In this document: one piece after another, positions 14,471-23,733 of the stretch
Position numbering within the stretch: the stretch's first letter is position 1
Layout: each line of letters starts with the position of its first letter
Assembly: GCF_028736155.1 (NCBI RefSeq)
Contig: NZ_CP117879.1
Location: forward strand, 3,782,001 to 3,846,000
Direction of reading: 5' to 3'
Source: Flavobacterium sp. KACC 22763
GTDB lineage: Bacteria; Bacteroidota; Bacteroidia; Flavobacteriales; Flavobacteriaceae
Length of the DNA stretch: 64,000 nt
The notes under the pieces: generated by a model
What the model was told of the DNA's origin: nothing
Seen by the model: only the letters and a program-made list of their open reading frames with translations
Databases searched by the model: none
Made by a program: the position numbers and the translations under genes

Positions 14471-14547
14471 ATTAATAATTTCGTAATACCTTCGAAATAA
14501 CATAAAAAACATATTTTTCTATCTTCGTTTTTAAAAACGTGTTAAAA

Positions 14548-15627
14548 ATGAGCATAGATTATTCTGCGAATAAAACTATTTTAGTGGCTCCATTAAATTG
14601 GGGACTTGGACATGCCACTCGATGCATTCCTATTATCAAGGCGCTTCAGGAGAATAATTATATTCCGATTATCGCCTCCGATGGTGTTGCGCTGGCTCTA
14701 TTACGAAAAGAATTTCCATATATACAAACTTTAGAATTGCCTTCTTATCATATTGAATATGCAAAGAATGGCAAAAACTTTAAATGGAAGCTGATTAAAA
14801 ATCTTCCGAAGATGATTACAGCTATTCTCGATGAGAAAAAAATGATCAATCATTGGATAAAAAAACATAGCATTGATGGTATTATCTCAGACAACAGATT
14901 GGGAGTTATCAGTAAAAAAGTGCCTTCTGTTTTTATTACGCATCAATTGAATGTCATGACAGGAAACACAACTTGGTTTACGAGTAAATGTCATCAGCAT
15001 TTTATTAAAAAATACAATGAATGCTGGGTTCCCGACTCCAACGAAAAAACAAACCTGACTGGAGATTTAGGCCACTTGAAAAATAATGAGCTGAATCTAA
15101 AATATATCGGACCGTTGAGCCGAATGAAAAAAAAGGATACTCCAAAAATATATGATTTGATGATTATATTGTCTGGACCTGAACCTCAGCGCACTTTCTT
15201 GGATGAAAAATTGCAGAAAGAAGCGGCAAAATATCCTGGAAAAGTGGTTTTTGTACAAGGAAAAGTAGAAAAATCGCAAGAAAAATGGCAGGCTGGAAAT
15301 GTCACTTATTATAATTTCATGAACTCTAAACAGCTGGAACAGACTTTTAACGAAAGTGAGTTTGTATTGTGCCGTTCGGGTTATACCACTGTTATGGATT
15401 TGGCAAAGCTAGGCAAAAAAGCCTTTTTTATTCCAACACCTGGACAATATGAGCAGGAATATCTAGCGATAAAACTGCAGGAAGAAAATCTTGTACCGTA
15501 TGCCATGCAGGATGATTTTACCATTGGAGACTTGTCGAAAGTAAAGTCATTTAAAGGATTGTCTCAATTTGAAAATAATATTGACTGGGATTCTTTATTT
15601 AAGGTTTTTGAAGACAGGACAGCGTAA
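14548..15627 (+). CDS. MurG-like (GT28-type) glycosyltransferase
   Basis: 359 residues from ATG 14548; the in-frame GTG at 14539 would add three residues, but the ATG fits the conserved start. The N-terminal donor/acceptor fold starts with APLNWGLGHATRCIPI. The C-terminal nucleotide-sugar domain has CRSGYTTVMDLAKLGKKAFF followed by PTPGQYEQEYLA, the GT28/UDP-GlcNAc-transferase pattern. There is no signal peptide, so it acts at the cytoplasmic face. Acceptor unknown: glycolipid, LPS or capsule are possible, and murein MurG itself is unlikely given the lack of cell-wall neighbours. A near-consensus -7 (TATCTTCG) lies just upstream. Confidence 0.75.
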   Translation: MSIDYSANKTILVAPLNWGLGHATRCIPIIKALQENNYIPIIASDGVALALLRKEFPYIQTLELPSYHIEYAKNGKNFKWKLIKNLPKMITAILDEKKMINHWIKKHSIDGIISDNRLGVISKKVPSVFITHQLNVMTGNTTWFTSKCHQHFIKKYNECWVPDSNEKTNLTGDLGHLKNNELNLKYIGPLSRMKKKDTPKIYDLMIILSGPEPQRTFLDEKLQKEAAKYPGKVVFVQGKVEKSQEKWQAGNVTYYNFMNSKQLEQTFNESEFVLCRSGYTTVMDLAKLGKKAFFIPTPGQYEQEYLAIKLQEENLVPYAMQDDFTIGDLSKVKSFKGLSQFENNIDWDSLFKVFEDRTA

Positions 15628-15814: not shown

Positions 15815-17125
15815 TTAGAAATTAAACTGCACTTGCAATCTTAGTACATTTCCTTGCTGTCTGTTTATTGGCAGTGCGCTATCTTCAAAAGTTCGGTCTG
15901 CTACAACGTATTCTGCTGTAAGTTCAAATGCTTTGATTGGCTGCCATTCAACACCAAATTCGTAATCTCTTACTACATAACTTCTAGCATCTTTTTCATA
16001 TTTTTTTCCTCCATCATAATATTGAAATTTAGCAAAAGGATAAATACGCTGTTTTTTAAGATCCCATTTATAGTTTAACAAAACGTAACCTCCATTCAAA
16101 TCGGTTTGGTCAATATTTTTGGTAAGCGTATTGTATCTAGGCCCAGTTCCGAAGTTGTATTCCGTTTGAATTCCGAAAGGTCTTGGATATAAAACAAAAG
16201 TTGCTCCAACACGCTGATCTTTTACATATTGAGGATCGTTAACCGTAACTCCTGGTGAAACTTCTCCTGTAAAAGCCCATTTTCCAGTGTAAGCCTGAAT
16301 TCCAGGTTCTATAATCTGGCTTCCAATAACAAAAGGATAAGTTACTCTCGCCACCACGTTTAAATCTCTATTTCCATCCAATTTGTTTGCGATTTGACCG
16401 TTGTAAACACCTAGTGCAAAAACACCAAAATCTCCAGAACCTTTGTAGCCGTCTTTAACCAGCATTTCAAAACGCTGTCTGATTTCGGCTGGAGCCCAAT
16501 AAAAGAATATTCCTAAATCACGCTCATTCAAAATTGAAGAGTTAATTGCATCGGCGCGGTCTAGAGTTAAACGCTGCGAGCTTGACTGCATATTTTCAAA
16601 TCCGTATGGAATTTTACTTTGCCCTACACGTACTCGATATTCTTTTTTCTTATCAAAAGAAAGATCAAAATACAAGTCACGAATCTGAACGAAGTTATTA
16701 ATTCCGCTTGACGGTGAACTCGCAAAATCGGGCTGGAAATAGAAAAATACATTCGGATGCACTTGTCCAGAAAACACTAAACGGGCACGGCGAATAAAAA
16801 GTCCGTTGTTTGCTTTTGCATCTGGAGCTGTCGAAGTTGTTCCCCAAGATCTATCACATTGCTCACAAGAAACTTTATCGTTTGTAGAAAACAGTCCATT
16901 GTATCTAATCTGTGCATAACCTCTTAAAGAGATTCTATCATACCAATGTTCTTCAACTCCTCCTCCAGATTTAGTCTCCGGAAGTTTTGCTTTGTTTATA
17001 GAATCTAAAATACGCATTACTTCGTTTTTTACATCCTGTTTATTCAGCTCTTGCTTGTTTGTTTCCTGTGCATTGGCAGCACAAGTTAGCAGTAATAAAA
17101 CTGCCAATAGTTTTCTTTTTATCAT
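15815..17125 (-). CDS. OprO/OprP-type porin (phosphate-selective porin family)
   Basis: 436 residues from the ATG at 17125 (MIKRKLLAVLLLLTCAANAQ, a clear signal peptide); an upstream in-frame ATG at 17158 is ignored because it would lie within the promoter. A short charged helical segment follows (about 20-60), then the OprO/P barrel: ISLRGYAQIRYNGLF, GLFIRRARLVFSGQVHPNVF, FFYFQPDFA, VRVGQSKIPYGFENMQSS and a C-terminal aromatic (QVQFNF). There is a CEQC pair in an early loop. The family forms anion/phosphate channels in Pseudomonas. The adjacent PhoRB-like genes and the 11-bp-phased repeats in its promoter support regulation by phosphate limitation (inference). Confidence 0.85.
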   Translation of the reverse strand: MIKRKLLAVLLLLTCAANAQETNKQELNKQDVKNEVMRILDSINKAKLPETKSGGGVEEHWYDRISLRGYAQIRYNGLFSTNDKVSCEQCDRSWGTTSTAPDAKANNGLFIRRARLVFSGQVHPNVFFYFQPDFASSPSSGINNFVQIRDLYFDLSFDKKKEYRVRVGQSKIPYGFENMQSSSQRLTLDRADAINSSILNERDLGIFFYWAPAEIRQRFEMLVKDGYKGSGDFGVFALGVYNGQIANKLDGNRDLNVVARVTYPFVIGSQIIEPGIQAYTGKWAFTGEVSPGVTVNDPQYVKDQRVGATFVLYPRPFGIQTEYNFGTGPRYNTLTKNIDQTDLNGGYVLLNYKWDLKKQRIYPFAKFQYYDGGKKYEKDARSYVVRDYEFGVEWQPIKAFELTAEYVVADRTFEDSALPINRQQGNVLRLQVQFNF

Positions 17126-17155: not shown

Positions 17156-17221
17156 CAAAGATGGAGCACCTATGTTAAGAAATCATTAACCAGATGTTAC
17201 TATAATAAAAATTTAATGTTA
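17156..17221 (-). promoter_or_regulatory. PHO-box-like 11-bp-phased TAAC/TAAT repeats and -7 element, porin promoter
   Basis: On the minus strand TAAC starts at 17221, 17199 and 17177 and TAAT at 17188, all on one 11-bp grid (one position, 17210, degenerate). A near-consensus -7 (CATCTTTG) starts at 17163. Distances to the -7 are 58, 36, 25 and 14. The same 25/36 register recurs at the TBDR and beta-helix lipoprotein promoters. The layout recalls PhoB boxes, where direct repeats recur every 11 bp. Confidence 0.65.
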
Positions 17222-17288
17222 TGGCCTAAATCGAAATGTTTATTTATTGTTAAACACCTTTGTTTTAGGGCTTTTAGCAAAACCTTCG

Positions 17289-18374
17289 TTACGTTTTTTT
17301 AACGTCAGTTCTTAGTGATTTATTTGCTTTTTCGAGTGTAAAAGAGAATTCAGAGCCAATTCCGAACTCACTTTCTACATAAACTTTCTCTTTATGCGCT
17401 TCAATAATATGCTTTACAATCGCCAATCCTAAACCAGAACCTCCTTCAGATCTTGTTCCGCTTTTATCCACTCTATAAAAACGTTCAAAAAGTCTCGGAA
17501 TGTTTTGTTTTTCAACGCCTTCTCCATTATCACTAATACGAATTAGGACTTTTTTCTTGGTTAAGTTTACCACGCCAACTTCAGTCAGACCACCTTCTTT
17601 TCCGTATTTAATAGAATTTACAATTAGGTTTTCCAGTACTTGCTGAATTCTATCCTGATCTCCTCTAATCATGACAGACTGCACATTTTTACTTTCAAAA
17701 GCCAGTTTAATTTTCTTCTTGTCTGCTTTCATTTCCAAAAGCTCAAAGACATTCTGGATCAATTCAACAATATCAAAATCAGTCATATTCAAATCTAAAT
17801 CTCCCGATTCTAATTTGGTAATCATATCTAAATCTTCTACTATATAGATAAGACGCTCTACACCTTTTTCGGCGCGTTTTAAGTATTTCTTTCTGATATT
17901 TTTATCGTCCATTGCTCCATCAAGCAAAGTTGAAACGTAGCCTTGAACAGTAAATAAAGGTGTTTTCAATTCGTGCGAAACGTTTCCTAAAAACTCTCTT
18001 CTATATTGTTCACGAATTTCGAGCATTTCGATTTCGAGCTTTTTATCGGTCGCGAACTTTTTCACTTCACGCGAAAGTGTTTCCATATCGGTATTAATCG
18101 GCTGATTAATTAATGTTGTGGATTCTAATAATGAAACCTCATCGTAAATTTTCTTTACCCTTCGGTAAATAAATCGTTCTACACGATATTGTAAAACCAG
18201 AAAAGAAAAAATATAGATTACGATTATGAAAATTATTCCAAACGCAACTTGATGTTTTAGTTGATTTTTATAAAATAATGACATTAACATCAGTACAAAT
18301 GCTGTTGTAAAGAGACTGATATACAATGCCGATTTTATGGCAAATTTGTATGTTTTTTTAAAATTAATCTTCAT
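17289..18374 (-). CDS. sensor histidine kinase, PhoR-like
   Basis: 361 residues. Two membrane segments (about 12-33 and 42-62) with almost no periplasmic loop are followed by a linker, the HisKA helix with phospho-acceptor H134 (FLGNVSHELKTPL), and a HATPase domain with N-box LENLIVNSIKYG, G1 SDNGEGV, F-box LFERFYRVD and G2 GGSGLGLAIVKH. The minimal sensor suggests that it reads a membrane partner rather than a soluble ligand, as E. coli PhoR does with the Pst transporter. It lies 240 bp downstream of the response-regulator gene, across a strong RNA hairpin and a repeat, so it may be co-transcribed at a different level. Confidence 0.9.
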   Translation of the reverse strand: MKINFKKTYKFAIKSALYISLFTTAFVLMLMSLFYKNQLKHQVAFGIIFIIVIYIFSFLVLQYRVERFIYRRVKKIYDEVSLLESTTLINQPINTDMETLSREVKKFATDKKLEIEMLEIREQYRREFLGNVSHELKTPLFTVQGYVSTLLDGAMDDKNIRKKYLKRAEKGVERLIYIVEDLDMITKLESGDLDLNMTDFDIVELIQNVFELLEMKADKKKIKLAFESKNVQSVMIRGDQDRIQQVLENLIVNSIKYGKEGGLTEVGVVNLTKKKVLIRISDNGEGVEKQNIPRLFERFYRVDKSGTRSEGGSGLGLAIVKHIIEAHKEKVYVESEFGIGSEFSFTLEKANKSLRTDVKKT

Positions 18375-18471
18375 TGAAAAAATTGAACCATTAAGAAATT
18401 AAGAAAATTAAGTTTTGCTTTAAGCTATTTTTCTTTTGATTAAATCAAAAAACAAAAAATGAATAACTCAA

Positions 18472-18521
18472 AAACCATATAAGAAAATGAAGATTGTAGA
18501 GCTTCAATTCTTATATGGTTT
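18472..18521. other. long imperfect hairpin between the PhoB-like and PhoR-like genes
   Basis: AAACCATATAAGAA (18472-18485) is exactly inverted at 18508-18521. Inside, TGAAG (18488-18492) pairs with CTTCA (18502-18506), giving about 19 bp of near-continuous stem. No T-run follows, so it does not look like a simple terminator; processing or mRNA stabilisation are alternatives. Confidence 0.55.
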
Positions 18522-18555
18522 AAATGTATTGAATATTTTTAAAAGAATTTGAATG

Positions 18556-18606
18556 GATTTAAAAACTAAGTGCCTTAGCAACTTAGTATCTTAGAACCTT
18601 AGCAAC
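18556..18606. repeat. CTTAGCAACTTAG phrase repeat after the PhoB-like gene
   Basis: Units GTGCCTTAGCAACTTAG and TATCTTAGAACCTTAGCAAC directly follow the response-regulator stop codon; same family as 14349 and 50146. Confidence 0.6.
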
Positions 18607-18614
18607 TTCAAAAT

Positions 18615-19298
18615 CTAAACTTCAAATTTATAGCCTACACCTTTTATGGTTTTAAAAAGATCTTCGCCTATTTTTTCGCGCAATTTTCTGATGTGAACAT
18701 CAATTGTTCTTCCTCCAACTACAACTTCGTTACCCCAAACTTTATCTAGGATTTCGTCTCTTTTAAAAACTTTTCCAGGTTTTGAAGCCAACAGATAAAA
18801 TAATTCGAATTCTTTTCTTGGCAAAGCAATTTCTACATTGCCTTTTATGATTTTGTATTCTTCACGGTTAATCTCGATTCCGCCTACATTTAAAGTATCT
18901 GTAACAACTTCTTGTTCTTTTAACCTTCTTAACAGCGCCTTTACTTTTGAGACCAATAATTTTGGTTTGATAGGTTTGGTTATATAGTCATCGGCACCGG
19001 CATCAAAACCAGCTACTTGAGAATAATCTTCGCTTCTTGCTGTAAGGAACGTTATGATAACATTATTTAATTCTGGAATTTTTCTAATATGCTCGCAAGC
19101 CTCCATTCCGTCCATTTCTGCCATCATCACGTCCATAATGATTAGTTCTGGCAGCTCTTTCTGTGCTTTTGCTATAGCATCTTTTCCGTTAGAAGCTGTA
19201 ACAATCTGGTAGCCTTCCTGAGCAAGGTTATAGCCAACGATTTCTAAGATATCTGGTTCGTCGTCAACTAATAAAATCTTAGTTTGTGTTTTTTTCAT
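18615..19298 (-). CDS. OmpR/PhoB-family response regulator
   Basis: 227 residues from the ATG at 19298 (MKKTQTKILLVDDEPD). The receiver domain has an acidic pocket (DDEPD), phospho-acceptor D56 in LIIMDVMMAEMDG, switch T in ITFLTARSED and K in ADDYITKPIKP. The C-terminal OmpR/PhoB winged helix (about 130-227) ends RTIDVHIRKLREKIGEDLFK and VGYKFEV. It pairs with the kinase downstream and is divergent from the TBDR at 19542; the shared intergenic region holds 11-bp-phased TAAC repeats that it may bind. Phosphate control is inferred from the porin and repeat pattern, not proved. Confidence 0.9.
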   Translation of the reverse strand: MKKTQTKILLVDDEPDILEIVGYNLAQEGYQIVTASNGKDAIAKAQKELPELIIMDVMMAEMDGMEACEHIRKIPELNNVIITFLTARSEDYSQVAGFDAGADDYITKPIKPKLLVSKVKALLRRLKEQEVVTDTLNVGGIEINREEYKIIKGNVEIALPRKEFELFYLLASKPGKVFKRDEILDKVWGNEVVVGGRTIDVHIRKLREKIGEDLFKTIKGVGYKFEV

Positions 19299-19406
19299 AA
19301 ATAGCAAAAATTGAGATTTTTATATCGAAACTTCTTCATTAAACATTCGATATTTCTTATTTCACAGGGTAAATATACTAACAAAAGAACCTTTAAAAAA
19401 TGGTGT

Positions 19407-19502
19407 TAACCGTAATTTAATCTCGTAACAATTTGATAATCTTAACAACACAAAAACATAACAAGTCGGTAACATGGACTTCACAGAGCGGTTCTTTCTT
19501 TG
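19407..19502 (+). promoter_or_regulatory. PHO-box-like 11-bp-phased repeats and -7 element, TBDR promoter
   Basis: TAAC at 19426, TAAT at 19437, TAAC at 19459 and TAAC at 19470 share one 11-bp grid, with the last two 36 and 25 bp before a near-consensus -7 (TTTCTTTG, 19495-19502). A further TAACCGTAATTTAAT at 19407-19421 is off that grid but nearly identical to 22457-22471 at the lipoprotein promoter. Confidence 0.65.
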
Positions 19503-19541
19503 CACAAAAATAATAAGACACAAACACAACACTGAAAAAAA

Positions 19542-22346
19542 ATGAAATTCAATTTAAGATTTCTCTTTATTGCATTATTTATCTGTACGATTTCGATCGC
19601 GCAAAACAAAGGTACGATTTCTGGAGTTCTAACTGATAAAGATATGAACAACGCATCTCTACCATTTGCTAATGTTTTAGTTAAAGGTACAAATATTAGC
19701 GTAAATACCGACGTAGACGGAAAATATTCCTTAAGCGTAAATCCTGGAAATTATACTTTAATCTTTAGTTTTTTAGGATATGAATCTGTTGAAGCTCCAG
19801 TAGCTGTTAAAGCAAACGAGACTATAACTGTTAATAAAGGACTTTCTTCTGGAAGCTATACGCTTAAAGATGTAGTTGTAAAATCAACAGCTAACAAAGA
19901 AAAAGAAACTGCTTTACTTTTAGATCAAAAAAATGCTGTTGTAATCAAACAAAGTATTGGTGCACAGGAAATGTCTCGAAAAGGTGTAAGCGATGTTGAA
20001 GAGGGTTTGACAAAAGTAACTGGAATCTCAAAAGTAGGTTCAAGAGGTATATTTGTACGTGGTCTTGAAGATCGTTACAATAACTTATTGATTAATGATC
20101 TTGCTGCTCCATCAAACAGCCCATATTCAAAAATCGTTCCGCTAGATTTATTCCCAACAAACATTGTTGGTGTAATTGATGTTTACAAAACTTTCAATCC
20201 AAATATTTACGGAGATTTCGCTGGAGGAACTTTCAATATCCAAACTTCAAAACCAACAAAAGCTGTCACTAAAATAAATATTGGAGCAGGATATACAACA
20301 GGAAACAGCTTCAAAGATTTCTTGCTTTCTGGAGACGCAGATTCTGCTGCTGGTTTCTTCGGGTTTAATGGTAAAGACAGAGAATTGCCAAGTTTCTTAA
20401 GTGAAACTGCCGGAAGAACAACTTTCACAAAAGATCAGGCATTAAACTCAGTTAGCGGAGATAAAGGTTTTAACGTTAGCAAAAGCAAAAGCCCATTAAA
20501 CTCAAGCTTCAATTTTCTGCACGCTGAAAAATTTGACTTAAGCAACAACCGTAACCTTTCATACTTATTGTCTCTTAATTTCGATAATAACTTTGCAGTT
20601 AGAGAAGGTGTTAACAGAACACTACAAACACTTGGTGATAAATACAACAATGACTTCATCAATACTGAATACCGTTTCAAAACTAGCACTTCTGCATTAG
20701 TTGGTGTAAATTATTCAGCTGAGCGATACAAATTATCTTTCAACACTTTATACCTGAAAACTACATTAAACTCGATCTTAGATCAATACGGAGTTTTAAG
20801 CAATAATGGTATCAAGAACAACTTTATCCGTACGAATCAATTGGATAAAACAGATTATCTAAATACTCAATTATTAGGTGAATACAATTTGACAGAAGAT
20901 AAAAACCAAACTTTAAAAGGTGGTGTATCTTATGCAAATACTAAATACGGTCAGCCAGACAGAAAATTCTACACTGGTACTCAAGAAACTGACAACCAAA
21001 TTAACACTTCTTATGGAGGTAACAACTTCTTACGTCAGTATTTAAGTGTAGACGGAAATGTATTTGTTTCTGGATTATTAGAATACAATTTAAAATTTGG
21101 AAAAGACAAACAAAACAAATTGACTGTTGGTTATAACGGAAATTTTTCTAAAATGGAATCTTCTTACCGTTTTGTATCAAGTTATGGTGGTACCTTTTCA
21201 TCAAACGACATCAACAATATCGATTCGAAAATTACAACTGACATCAACAACAACGTAGTTGCTTTTGCTGAAAGTTCAAACACAACTTATAAAGTAAAAC
21301 TTAACGAAAGTGCAAATGCAGGATACGCAAACTTATTCTGGAAATTTGCTGACAAGTTTGAACTTAACGGAGGTGTAAGAGTTGAAAACACGATCAAAGA
21401 AACATACTTCAGAACTTTAGGTTCTTTTGATGATCCATTCAAAAAGAAAACATACAACAATCTTTATGTTTTACCTTCTGTAAACTTGAAATATCTAATG
21501 ACAGAAACGTCTAATATTCGTTTCGCAGCAAGTAAAACGTATACAAAACCAGTTGTAATGGAATCTTTCCCTATCTCATACATCAATGCAGATAATACTT
21601 CAACACAAGGTAACTCATTATTGAAAAACAGTGATAACTATAATGTTGACTTGAAATACGAATTATTCCCAACTGCAAAAGAAATGATCACTTTTGGAAT
21701 ATTTGGAAAATATATTGACAATCCGATCGAAAGAACATTTATTGCAAACGCTACATCGGGAACTGTAACTACTTTCCTAAATTCAGATAATGCAACTTTG
21801 TACGGAGCAGAAGTTGAATTCCTTTTAGGATTAAACAGAATTAGTGAAAATCTTGAGCATTTCTCTTTCGGATTAAACGCTTCATTAATGTCTACGAAAG
21901 TAAATGTTGCAAAAACTTACGAATCTCAGGATGAGGATGGAAATGTAACGGTTAAAAATTCAATCGAAACACATAGCTCAAGATCATTGCAAGGTGCATC
22001 AGACTGGTTAGTAAACTCAGATTTGAAATATGAATTTAACTTAGGCAAAGACTGGACAAACACTATGTCTCTTGTTTATGGAGTATTCGGAAAAAGAATT
22101 TATGCAGTAGGAACAAACGGTCAGGATAATACTTATGAATTGCCTGTATCTCAATTAGACTTTGTTTGGGGAAGTAAACTCTCAGAGCATTTTGATGTGA
22201 AATTTACAGCAGACAACTTATTAAACCCAGCAAGACAGTTAGAATTTGGAAATAACGGAACTGTAAAAGTTGATGAACCATCTTTATTAGCAAACAGCTA
22301 TAAAAAAGGTGTAGGATTCTCAGTTAAAGTTGGCTATACATTCTAA
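19542..22346 (+). CDS. TonB-dependent receptor with carboxypeptidase-regulatory-like domain
   Basis: 934 residues. A signal peptide (FLFIALFICTISIAQ) is followed by a carboxypeptidase-D-regulatory-like domain at about 22-105 (GTISGVLTDKDMNNASLPFA, LSVNPGNYTLIFSFLGYES). A plug follows at about 130-240 (KGVSDVEEGLTKVTGISKVG, RGIFVRGLEDRYNNLLIN), then a 22-strand-type barrel ending GVGFSVKVGYTF. It is an energy-driven outer-membrane importer. The next gene encodes a beta-helix lipoprotein with a matching promoter; the pair is not SusC/SusD but may act similarly. Substrate unknown; phosphate or a phosphorylated compound is inferred from the regulation. A terminator at 22369 ends this transcript. 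Confidence 0.88.
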   Translation: MKFNLRFLFIALFICTISIAQNKGTISGVLTDKDMNNASLPFANVLVKGTNISVNTDVDGKYSLSVNPGNYTLIFSFLGYESVEAPVAVKANETITVNKGLSSGSYTLKDVVVKSTANKEKETALLLDQKNAVVIKQSIGAQEMSRKGVSDVEEGLTKVTGISKVGSRGIFVRGLEDRYNNLLINDLAAPSNSPYSKIVPLDLFPTNIVGVIDVYKTFNPNIYGDFAGGTFNIQTSKPTKAVTKINIGAGYTTGNSFKDFLLSGDADSAAGFFGFNGKDRELPSFLSETAGRTTFTKDQALNSVSGDKGFNVSKSKSPLNSSFNFLHAEKFDLSNNRNLSYLLSLNFDNNFAVREGVNRTLQTLGDKYNNDFINTEYRFKTSTSALVGVNYSAERYKLSFNTLYLKTTLNSILDQYGVLSNNGIKNNFIRTNQLDKTDYLNTQLLGEYNLTEDKNQTLKGGVSYANTKYGQPDRKFYTGTQETDNQINTSYGGNNFLRQYLSVDGNVFVSGLLEYNLKFGKDKQNKLTVGYNGNFSKMESSYRFVSSYGGTFSSNDINNIDSKITTDINNNVVAFAESSNTTYKVKLNESANAGYANLFWKFADKFELNGGVRVENTIKETYFRTLGSFDDPFKKKTYNNLYVLPSVNLKYLMTETSNIRFAASKTYTKPVVMESFPISYINADNTSTQGNSLLKNSDNYNVDLKYELFPTAKEMITFGIFGKYIDNPIERTFIANATSGTVTTFLNSDNATLYGAEVEFLLGLNRISENLEHFSFGLNASLMSTKVNVAKTYESQDEDGNVTVKNSIETHSSRSLQGASDWLVNSDLKYEFNLGKDWTNTMSLVYGVFGKRIYAVGTNGQDNTYELPVSQLDFVWGSKLSEHFDVKFTADNLLNPARQLEFGNNGTVKVDEPSLLANSYKKGVGFSVKVGYTF

Positions 22347-22368
22347 TATTAAGAACACAATATACTTG

Positions 22369-22398
22369 AAAGCTCCAGAAATTCTGGGGCTTTTTTTA
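22369..22398 (+). terminator. TBDR terminator
   Basis: AGCTCCAGAA/TTCTGGGGCT stem followed by TTTTTTT. Confidence 0.85.
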
Positions 22399-22456
22399 TG
22401 GCAGCAATTTGCATAAATCTACTTAACATTCCCTTCACATTTTAGTCTATTTTTAA

Positions 22457-22511
22457 TAACCGTAATGTAATACTCAGATAACACCCTAAAAGGATTAACC
22501 TCATAATTTTG
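22457..22511 (+). promoter_or_regulatory. PHO-box-like 11-bp-phased repeats and -7 element, beta-helix lipoprotein promoter
   Basis: TAAC 22457, TAAT 22468 and TAAC 22479 are spaced exactly 11 bp, and lie 47, 36 and 25 bp before a perfect -7 element TAATTTTG (22504-22511). This is the clearest of the three copies. Confidence 0.7.
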
Positions 22512-22545: not shown

Positions 22546-23733
22546 ATGAAAACTAAAATTCTTGCTTTAGCACTTGCTACAGGTTTATTTTTTAATTCTT
22601 GCTCAAGCAGCGACGATCCAACTCCTGCACCGACACCTGCTACAGGAGAAATTACAGGTCCTATTACTGCTAACAAAACTTATGCTTACGGTAACTACAC
22701 TTTAAAAGGAATTGTAAAAATTAATTCTGGTGTAACTGTAACTTTTGATGCAGGATCTACAATCACTATAGACAAAGCTACTGGAGACAACGCTTTAGTT
22801 GTTTTAAACGGAGGAAAACTTATCATCAACGGAACTGCTGACAAACCAGTTGTTTTTACTGAAAAATCTAAACTTCCTGGTTCTTGGGGAGGTATCATCA
22901 TGTACGGTGATGCACCTGCAAAAGTTGCTGGAGGAGGAACTTCTTCGACTTCAGAAGATGGAAACAATATTTCTTATGGAGGATCTAATGCAACTCACAA
23001 TGGTGGTTCATTAAACTACGTAAGAGTTGAGTACGCTGGTTCTAAATTAGCTGATGGAACAAAAGAAAACAATGCTTTCACATTCTACTCTGTAGGTTCT
23101 GGAACAACTTTAGATCACTTAGTAGCTTACAAAGGTGCTGACGACGGATTCGAATTCTTCGGAGGAACTGTAAGTATGACAAACGCTATCTCTTACGGTA
23201 ACTATGATGATGCTTTTGACTGGCAAGATGGATGGCAAGGAACTGCTAACACAAACTGGTACGCTTACCAAACTGGAAAAGGAAACTACGGAATGGAAAT
23301 CGAAGCATCTGCTAATGATAATTCTTTCGGACCAAAAGTTACTAACATCACTTTAAAAAGAGAAGCTGGAAACGTTCCTGAAGTTGGAGATAACCAAGTT
23401 GATGCTTTCCAATTCAAAAGAGAAGGTAACGGAGAATACAGCAACATCGTTGTTGATGGTTACGGAAACTTCACAACTGGAGCTACAACTTATCAAGGAG
23501 CAGTAGTTAGTATCTTAGATGCAGCAACTAACACTCACCAAGTAAATACATCTAAAATTAAAATTTTAAATGTAAAAATTTCTAACACAACAAACGTAAC
23601 TCCTATTGCAGGTGCTGCTGGTTTTACAGTTGCTTTCCCAGCTGGAACTTTTACAACAAGTACTACAGCTACTGGAGCTTCATTAGCAGCAGGAGCTTGG
23701 GCTTCAGTTGATGGCGCTAGCTTAATCAAATAA
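22546..23733 (+). CDS. secreted right-handed beta-helix lipoprotein
   Basis: 395 residues with a lipoprotein signal peptide (lipobox FNSC, Cys19, then SSSDDPTPAP, a surface-export-like acidic/proline stretch). The body consists of short Gly/Asn/Val-rich beta repeats (ITIDKATGDNALVVLNGGKL, VFTEKSKLPGSWGGIIMYG, DDGFEFFGGTVSMTNAISYG, DDAFDWQDGWQG) expected of a parallel beta-helix. Homologues are sometimes named multidrug transporter, which the sequence does not support. The tandem position behind the TBDR and the shared phased promoter repeats suggest a surface partner for it, such as a ligand-binding protein or nutrient hydrolase. No classical catalytic motif is recognised. Confidence 0.75.
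   Translation: MKTKILALALATGLFFNSCSSSDDPTPAPTPATGEITGPITANKTYAYGNYTLKGIVKINSGVTVTFDAGSTITIDKATGDNALVVLNGGKLIINGTADKPVVFTEKSKLPGSWGGIIMYGDAPAKVAGGGTSSTSEDGNNISYGGSNATHNGGSLNYVRVEYAGSKLADGTKENNAFTFYSVGSGTTLDHLVAYKGADDGFEFFGGTVSMTNAISYGNYDDAFDWQDGWQGTANTNWYAYQTGKGNYGMEIEASANDNSFGPKVTNITLKREAGNVPEVGDNQVDAFQFKREGNGEYSNIVVDGYGNFTTGATTYQGAVVSILDAATNTHQVNTSKIKILNVKISNTTNVTPIAGAAGFTVAFPAGTFTTSTTATGASLAAGAWASVDGASLIK

Follow-up and report, generated by a model that had tools for sequence, protein, structure and literature searches.

A predicted PHO box of 11-bp-phased TAAC/TAAT half-sites in fixed register to the -7 element of Bacteroidia phosphate promoters

Among the boxes described for phosphate regulators, those of Bacillus PhoP and cyanobacterial SphR, made of 11-bp-phased repeats of the TT(A/C)ACA and CTTAAC type, are the nearest in letters to TTAACA, and these systems work with another sigma factor and another core promoter. 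In the Bacteroidota, to our knowledge, regulation is hard to predict, with an unusual core promoter and few operator sequences known. The available part of a study of Bacteroides fragilis reports that pstC was reduced to a trace in cells lacking PhoB, and that PhoB shifted a 512-bp fragment of the pstC promoter (PMC3547664). No earlier description of a Bacteroidota PHO box was found in the open-licence PMC literature, among the matches listed. Here, we analysed a window of 64,000 nucleotides (the whole stretch of DNA examined, C1:3782001-3846000) from the single contig of 5,561,005 bases of Flavobacterium sp. KACC 22763, which contains, in this order, genes for a glycosyltransferase, a Porin_O_P porin, a PhoR-like kinase, a PhoB-like regulator, a divergent TonB-dependent receptor (TBDR), and a lipoprotein. 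Phosphate-gene promoters of this window, together with 38 of 65 pst loci of the class Bacteroidia, carry an array of TAAC/TAAT words on an 11-bp grid that, judged from sequence, is very probably the predicted PHO box of phosphorylated PhoB.

In the following, TAAY stands for TAAC or TAAT, distances are counted from the first base of the word to the first base of the -7 element, the grid is register 3 (distances equal to 3 modulo 11), and a gap-7 pair (TAAY-N7-TAAY) is an 11-bp repeat. An earlier note on this DNA had placed such words at 58, 36, 25, and 14 (porin), 69, 58, 36, and 25 (TBDR), and 47, 36, and 25 (lipoprotein), all on one 11-bp grid; these distances proved exact, and every one of them is 3 modulo 11. 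A fourth in-register promoter, missed in that note, was found at the glycosyltransferase gene, with words at 47 and 36 before TATCTTCG at 14520. The word said to be shared between positions 19407 and 22457 was present at both sites, but in different registers, at 88 (TBDR, off grid) and 47 (lipoprotein, on grid). Off-grid TAAY words beyond those listed were also detected, at 88, 82, 77, and 52 (TBDR) and at 50, 41, and 8 (lipoprotein), and a perfect TAnnTTTG was seen only at the lipoprotein, the elements of the porin (CATCTTTG) and the TBDR (TTTCTTTG) being imperfect. Among 41 promoters examined in the window, a register-3 11-bp TAAY pair was present in four, exactly those of the phosphate-cluster genes; in two further genes the pairs all lay in other registers, and the TBDR carried an additional one in register 10.

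The analysis of pst operons revealed the same organization. The gene pstC was sought in 295 Bacteroidia genomes, with a match (E up to 0.001) in 134 and over the cut-off in 92, and 65 distinct pst loci were examined, leaving 61 operon heads after removal of four with short upstream regions. A gap-7 TAAY pair was present in 24 of the 61 heads, against 0–7 for any other gap between 2 and 14, and the TAAC-TAAC pair in 16 at gap 7 against 0–2 elsewhere. On the opposite strand gap 7 was likewise the top one (13/61 versus 1 to 10), and in a count of all 4-mers over the first 30 loci TAAC ranked first at 11 bp (6 versus 0). Of 27 pair-bearing heads, 22 had TT(T/C)G in register 3, versus 0–2 per other register, and these 22 span 15 families, the one of this genome among them. 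Pair-to-TTYG distances fell on the grid in 31 of 38 cases, at 14 (6), 25 (2), 36 (14), 47 (7), and 58 (2). When any gene of each pst locus was counted, the register-3 box appeared in 38 of the 65 loci, and boxes in each of the other registers in 0–4. In addition, 24 further genes of the pst loci carried an in-register box, and eight of them were searched in Pfam, giving three PBP_like_2 (PstS-type) proteins, two Porin_O_P porins, and three without a match; the two porins support the window porin as a carrier of the box. The occurrence of the same repeat and register at pst operons, the classical Pho target, of 15 families and at other phosphate genes of this genome supports what the earlier note had proposed, a phosphate regulon whose box is matched to the core promoter of the Bacteroidota with its -7 element.

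Conservation was analysed in the best 80 of 583 named phoB loci, with neighbouring genes located in each and dinucleotide shuffles of the upstream regions as reference. The number of 11-bp TAAY pairs was 119 versus 4.3 in shuffles upstream of the TBDR (44 Flavobacteriaceae loci), 40 versus 2.9 upstream of the lipoprotein (39 loci), 21 versus 0.8 for the porin (10 loci), and 15 versus 2.4 for the glycosyltransferase (47 loci). No excess was seen at the control genes TyrRS (3 versus 2.5, 40 loci) and LuxE (1 versus 1.0, 17 loci), and the complementary word GTTA gave just 0 or 1 11-bp pair per gene set. A TTTG anchor was located in 44/44 aligned TBDR promoters (the anchor itself was picked on TTTG), with TAAY at 25 (38), 36 (36), 58 (36), 69 (37), 77 (30), 82 (21), and 88 (29). 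Many of these receptors are merely about 30 to 40 percent identical, and the promoter words are conserved nonetheless. In 27 anchored lipoprotein promoters (12 more lacked the anchor), TAAY stood at 47 in 15, at 36 in 13, and at 25 in 18, and the ten porin promoters showed it at 36, 25, 14, and 58 in 9, 9, 8, and 6 cases. Upstream of phoB an 11-bp pair was present in 72 of 76 loci; where phoB lacks a TBDR neighbour, the pair antisense to it was kept in 29 of 32 loci; a pair at any other gap occurred in 1 to 13, and a sense-oriented 11-bp pair in 7. This antisense pair (19407-19421 in the window, and its equivalents in relatives) is a candidate site of autoregulation and probably acts as one.

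Judged by gene order, the cluster is likely the counterpart of the F. johnsoniae phoBR cluster Fjoh_0541 to 0546. The part of the low-phosphate dataset of that species available gives fold changes of 8.02 for the TonB-dependent transporter, 9.91 for the lipoprotein, 5.42 for the glycosyltransferase, and 3.06 for PhoB, and the counterpart of the porin was not induced (fold change -1.3, false discovery rate 0.245; PMC8115612). It may be that PhoB truly acts through the box at the TBDR, the lipoprotein, and the glycosyltransferase, and that at the porin, bound to the extra half-site at 14, it stands in the way of RNA polymerase, leaving this gene uninduced or repressed. The in-register words at 36, 25, and 14, each kept in eight or nine of the ten relatives, together with the flat porin response, agree with such a block, but the TBDR of the phytase cluster also carries TAAT at 14 (counted by eye) and its counterpart was induced in F. 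johnsoniae in the same dataset (PMC8115612), and some pst heads use 25/14; we consider such a block at the porin possible but rather doubtful.

The grid is also found in at least one promoter not known for phosphate, that of moxR (Bat operon). In moxR promoters of 30 genera (loci from 30 of 60 genomes), TAAC-N7-TAAC, TTTTAACCAATTATTAACA-like, was present at 36/25 before TTTG in 29 of 30 genera; therefore, the 11-bp TAAC spacing and the register are not enough to identify a PHO box, for which the flanks matter as well. The base two before TAAY was C or G in 38/53 half-sites of pst, 101/148 of TBDR, and 7/62 of moxR promoters, the remaining 55 of the latter having T or A, and T directly before TAAY was seen in 34/53, 38/148, and 62/62, respectively. 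The flanks of the RprY type (moxR class), with T directly before and T/A two before TAAC, are not those of the pst and TBDR half-sites, and the moxR grid sites probably serve an RprY-type regulator. An RprXY-like kinase/regulator pair is encoded at C1:744672-746981 of this genome, the RprY-like protein itself at C1:746265-746981, with NF051850 as its best NCBIfam model, under the cut-off.

A regulator of this kind has possibly been described in Riemerella anatipestifer under another name. PhoP of this species binds both its own promoter and that of moxR, with TTTAACA as the most conserved motif letters by DNA affinity purification sequencing (PMC9603813, in part), and deletion of the PhoPR pair raised pstS 8-fold (PMC5399024, in part). 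The PhoPR primers given in the latter source, translated by eye, encode GEEGLK and GYQLGAD, which resemble the RprY-like protein (NGMEGF, GYKAGADDY) more than they do PhoB (NGKDAI, GFDAGADDY); GYQLGADDY was present in 0 of 80 PhoB proteins and also in 0 of the 120 RprY-like relatives listed, which have GYK(V/A)GADDY. From these partial peptides we infer that R. anatipestifer PhoP would be RprY-like rather than PhoB; if this is right, its published motif would be a sister box and not a PHO box, and the PhoPR system may be misnamed. The R. anatipestifer PhoP data, once taken as direct support for the PhoB of the window, were withdrawn from that role on account of the published primers.

The boxes could belong to another OmpR-family regulator, an RprY-like protein binding TTTAAC repeats, phosphate genes included. 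The RprY-like appearance of R. anatipestifer PhoP, with its TTTAACA motif and its binding to moxR (PMC9603813, in part), and the identical 36/25 geometry at moxR speak for this assignment. However, the flanks differ, with C/G two before TAAY at pst and TBDR and T/A at moxR, phoB itself is preceded by an 11-bp pair in nearly all loci (72/76), the R. anatipestifer deletion raised pstS rather than abolishing it (PMC5399024, in part), and B. fragilis pstC requires PhoB itself (PMC3547664, in part), all of which makes an RprY-like owner of the phosphate boxes very improbable, and PhoB is retained as their predicted regulator.

The scan of the whole genome with TAAY-N7-TAAY-N21-TAnnTTTG, suggested in the earlier note, gave eight matches versus one for the reversed pattern, but only four of the eight were promoter-positioned, at the PitA operon, a choice-of-anchor I lipoprotein, a DUF5686 gene, and the window lipoprotein. 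The TBDR and the porin escape this strict pattern on account of their imperfect -7 elements. With a free spacer, 21 of 77 matches (annotated in part) fell at the three in-register gaps and 56 at 28 other gaps, and a TAAC-TAAC-TTTG scan of the genome gave 50 matches, below the reversed control (148) and with no peak at the expected gap. Of 671 promoters taken at random from this genome, three carried the in-register pair. An alternative is that these words mark no regulator site and are ordinary AT-rich promoter sequence, UP-like or curved, whose natural period is 10.5 to 11 bp. Their AT-richness speaks for it, as does a gap-7 TAAY pair in 48 of the 671 random promoters, where gap 7 is no commoner than gaps 3 to 12. 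This reading is scarcely credible against a signal specific to strand, word, spacing, register, and gene in related loci and pst operons, with 31/38 pair-to-TTYG distances on the grid and negative LuxE and TyrRS controls.

A matrix of the half-site, derived solely from TBDR promoters of species other than this one, was used to score 114 upstream regions, from the window and nine further stretches; as these stretches had been selected for phosphate genes or pattern matches, the resulting list is not a blind ranking, and PitA, choice-of-anchor I, DUF5686, and a MarR-like gene entered it via the pattern or beside pattern matches. The highest scores were those of the DUF47-PitA operon (20.1), the TBDR (19.2), the MarR-like gene (17.4), and the porin (17.2), followed by a 193-aa (amino acid) protein (15.9), the DUF5686 gene (15.8), the window lipoprotein (15.5), and a lipoprotein paralogue (14.9). 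Lower scores corresponded to the choice-of-anchor I lipoprotein (14.7), the phytase-cluster TBDR (14.5), a nuclease (14.4), the glycosyltransferase (12.5), and the window gene at 2562 (11.9). Seven of the 671 random promoters scored 12 or more, the best being moxR (16.6). Among genes picked by family or paralogy alone (two lipoprotein paralogues, the phytase cluster, a PhoA1-like gene, and the nuclease), a strict in-register pair was found in two of five, versus 3 of the 671 random promoters.

Several observations weigh against a PhoB box, in addition to the moxR grid and the uninduced porin counterpart mentioned above. The TBDR pair at 88/77 is conserved and yet off grid, and an in-register box was not found in 27 of the 65 pst loci within the stretch examined. 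Gene starts came from a simple open reading frame caller, which placed some of the pst heads wrongly, and certain pst loci (L266, L274) are closely related. High matrix scores were obtained at genes with no known phosphate link (MarR-like, 193-aa protein, DUF5686, moxR), and the register added no clear excess in random promoters, with seven at a score of 12 or more in register versus a mean of 3.7 when shifted (range 0–7); as in-register scores do not clearly exceed shifted ones, most weak matches are noise. The PhoA1-like gene and one lipoprotein paralogue carried no in-register box, the extracellular nuclease has a single intact half-site and is, on a strict count, a miss too, and the pair at C1:5493900-5493944, upstream of a sigma/FecR/SusCD/PhoA1-like cluster (partly named by eye), stands at 37/26, one base out of register. 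Finally, the top two NCBIfam models of the PhoB-like regulator, TIGR02154 PhoB and NF053854, missed their equivalog cut-offs (214.8/296.2 and 204.2/270 bits).

On our best reading, the half-site is about (C/G)NTAA(C/T)A in 11-bp repeat, with the lower half-site preceding the -7 element by 14, 25, 36, 47, or 58 bp. Under low phosphate PhoR would phosphorylate PhoB, whose monomers would align head to tail, one each 11 bp, on the half-sites and on degenerate grid sites between them. Non-TAAY words at empty grid positions are partly conserved, three or more of the four core letters being matched by 18 of 61 such words and by 123 of 860 words outside the grid (p = 0.003, one-sided), and exact 11-bp steps over 44 bp fit such tiling better than a helical turn of 10.5 bp. 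The promoter-proximal monomer would thereby be held at a constant position next to the RNA polymerase that occupies TAnnTTTG/TTCG, and would recruit this enzyme. The Bacteroidota core promoter has a -33/-7 geometry, and at 36/25 the lower half-site would coincide with the position of the -33 element; the E. coli PHO box replaces the -35. A more general rule, to which we give an even chance, is a quantised activator grammar in Bacteroidia, by which OmpR-family regulators (PhoB and its RprY-like paralogue) would activate from TAAC arrays whose lower half-site stands at 14/25/36/47/58 only, the exact 11-bp step, as opposed to the helical turn of 10.5 bp, coming from the head-to-tail tiling of monomers down to the polymerase, and regulators on the same grid being distinguished by the two bases before TAAC.

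Table 1. Promoter elements and genes of the phosphate cluster (window positions; distances to the -7 element in brackets).
Feature	Position	Strand	Remark
-7 element, glycosyltransferase promoter (TATCTTCG)	14520..14527	+	
Glycosyltransferase in-register pair TAAT-N7-TAAT (47, 36)	14473..14487	+	
-7 element, porin promoter (CATCTTTG)	17156..17163	-	
Porin in-register half-sites TAAC, TAAT, TAAC (36, 25, 14)	17174..17199	-	
Porin extra in-register half-site TAAC (58)	17218..17221	-	
-7 element, TBDR promoter (TTTCTTTG)	19495..19502	+	
TBDR promoter-proximal pair TAAC-N7-TAAC (36, 25)	19459..19473	+	
TBDR second in-register pair TAAC-N7-TAAT (69, 58)	19426..19440	+	
TBDR third pair, off-register, TAAC-N7-TAAT (88, 77)	19407..19421	+	Antisense to phoB
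-7 element, lipoprotein promoter (TAATTTTG)	22504..22511	+	
Lipoprotein in-register half-sites TAAC, TAAT, TAAC (47, 36, 25)	22457..22482	+	
Glycosyltransferase family 28-like	14548..15627	+	Locus order: likely Fjoh_0541 counterpart
Phosphate-selective porin (Porin_O_P)	15815..17125	-	Pfam
PhoR-like histidine kinase	17289..18374	-	HisKA + HATPase_c
PhoB-like OmpR-family response regulator	18615..19301	-	Response_reg + Trans_reg_C
TonB-dependent receptor	19542..22346	+	Domain match
Lipoprotein	22546..23733	+	Locus order: likely F. johnsoniae form II (Fjoh_0546) counterpart

The DNA-binding domain of the PhoB-like regulator is related to that of E. coli PhoB (1gxp, E 1.9e-15), a structure solved on DNA. 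The closest named loci among the matches listed were those of Flavobacterium potami and F. panici, with identical PhoB (100%). In three relatives (L009, L013, and L014) PhoB is 98 to 100 percent identical to that of the window and the adjoining TBDR and lipoprotein only 32 to 40 percent, and in another (L010) the TBDR and lipoprotein are 91 to 92 percent identical; the contrast in the former three, with TBDR promoter kept and receptor diverged, was read as receptor exchange under a fixed promoter. A Pfam search of the window lipoprotein gave no match. The PhoR-like kinase, with PnpS and PhoR as top NCBIfam models, both under the cut-off, is short (361 aa), and two N-terminal hydrophobic stretches (by eye) precede its kinase part.

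Elsewhere in this genome, pstC gave a weak match only, under the cut-off, and PhoX (PF05787) zero matches, and this genome was the sole one with a DUF47 match among 60 genomes of 60 genera. The highest-scoring box among the regions scored was that of the DUF47-PitA operon (C1:587861-589876). With no pstC over the cut-off, a short PhoR, and the best box at this operon, the phosphate signal may arrive through PitA in place of Pst. In addition, the gene with DUF5686 and CarbopepD_reg_2 domains (C1:3387418-3389907) has an in-register box at 36/25 and is a possible new phosphate gene, and the small MarR-like gene (named by eye; C1:3040043-3040501) has an in-register TAAC-N7-TAAC at 47/36.

With a PHO box of strict register, the phosphate regulon of this class, common in soils, roots, the sea, and the gut, would become predictable from sequence, and the register would allow a sharp test of the way in which a PhoB-type activator gains access to an RNA polymerase working with a -7 element.

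Compared with the known systems, the array shares with the E. coli PHO box bound by PhoB the 11-bp direct repeats, an OmpR/PhoB-family regulator, and phosphate genes downstream (PMC4415409, in part), but its half-site is not CTGTCAT, as 11-bp pairs of that word with up to one mismatch per unit were found in 0/4 window, 0/61 pst, and 0/44 TBDR promoters (0, 1, and 1 with up to two mismatches), and its boxes occupy several 11-bp-stepped positions relative to the -7 element. From the Bacillus PhoP and SphR boxes it differs in the C/G favoured two before TAAC and in the fixed register to -7. The R. anatipestifer PhoP motif is alike in its TAAC core, in its host (placed by the authors in the Flavobacteriaceae), in its OmpR-family regulator, and in the bound moxR promoter, but it has TT before TAAC, and the available part of the report mentions neither a phase to -7 nor a direct repeat (PMC9603813). 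In B. fragilis, also of the Bacteroidia, PhoB is required for pstC and shifts a fragment of its promoter, although no box sequence is given in the available text (PMC3547664). The array described here has the 11-bp tandem direct repeats of a PHO box and lies, with misses, upstream of phosphate-acquisition genes including pst; as a predicted box, it is of a known kind, that of 11-bp direct repeats, but its half-site is new and its register to the -7 element of the Bacteroidota is strict and quantised.

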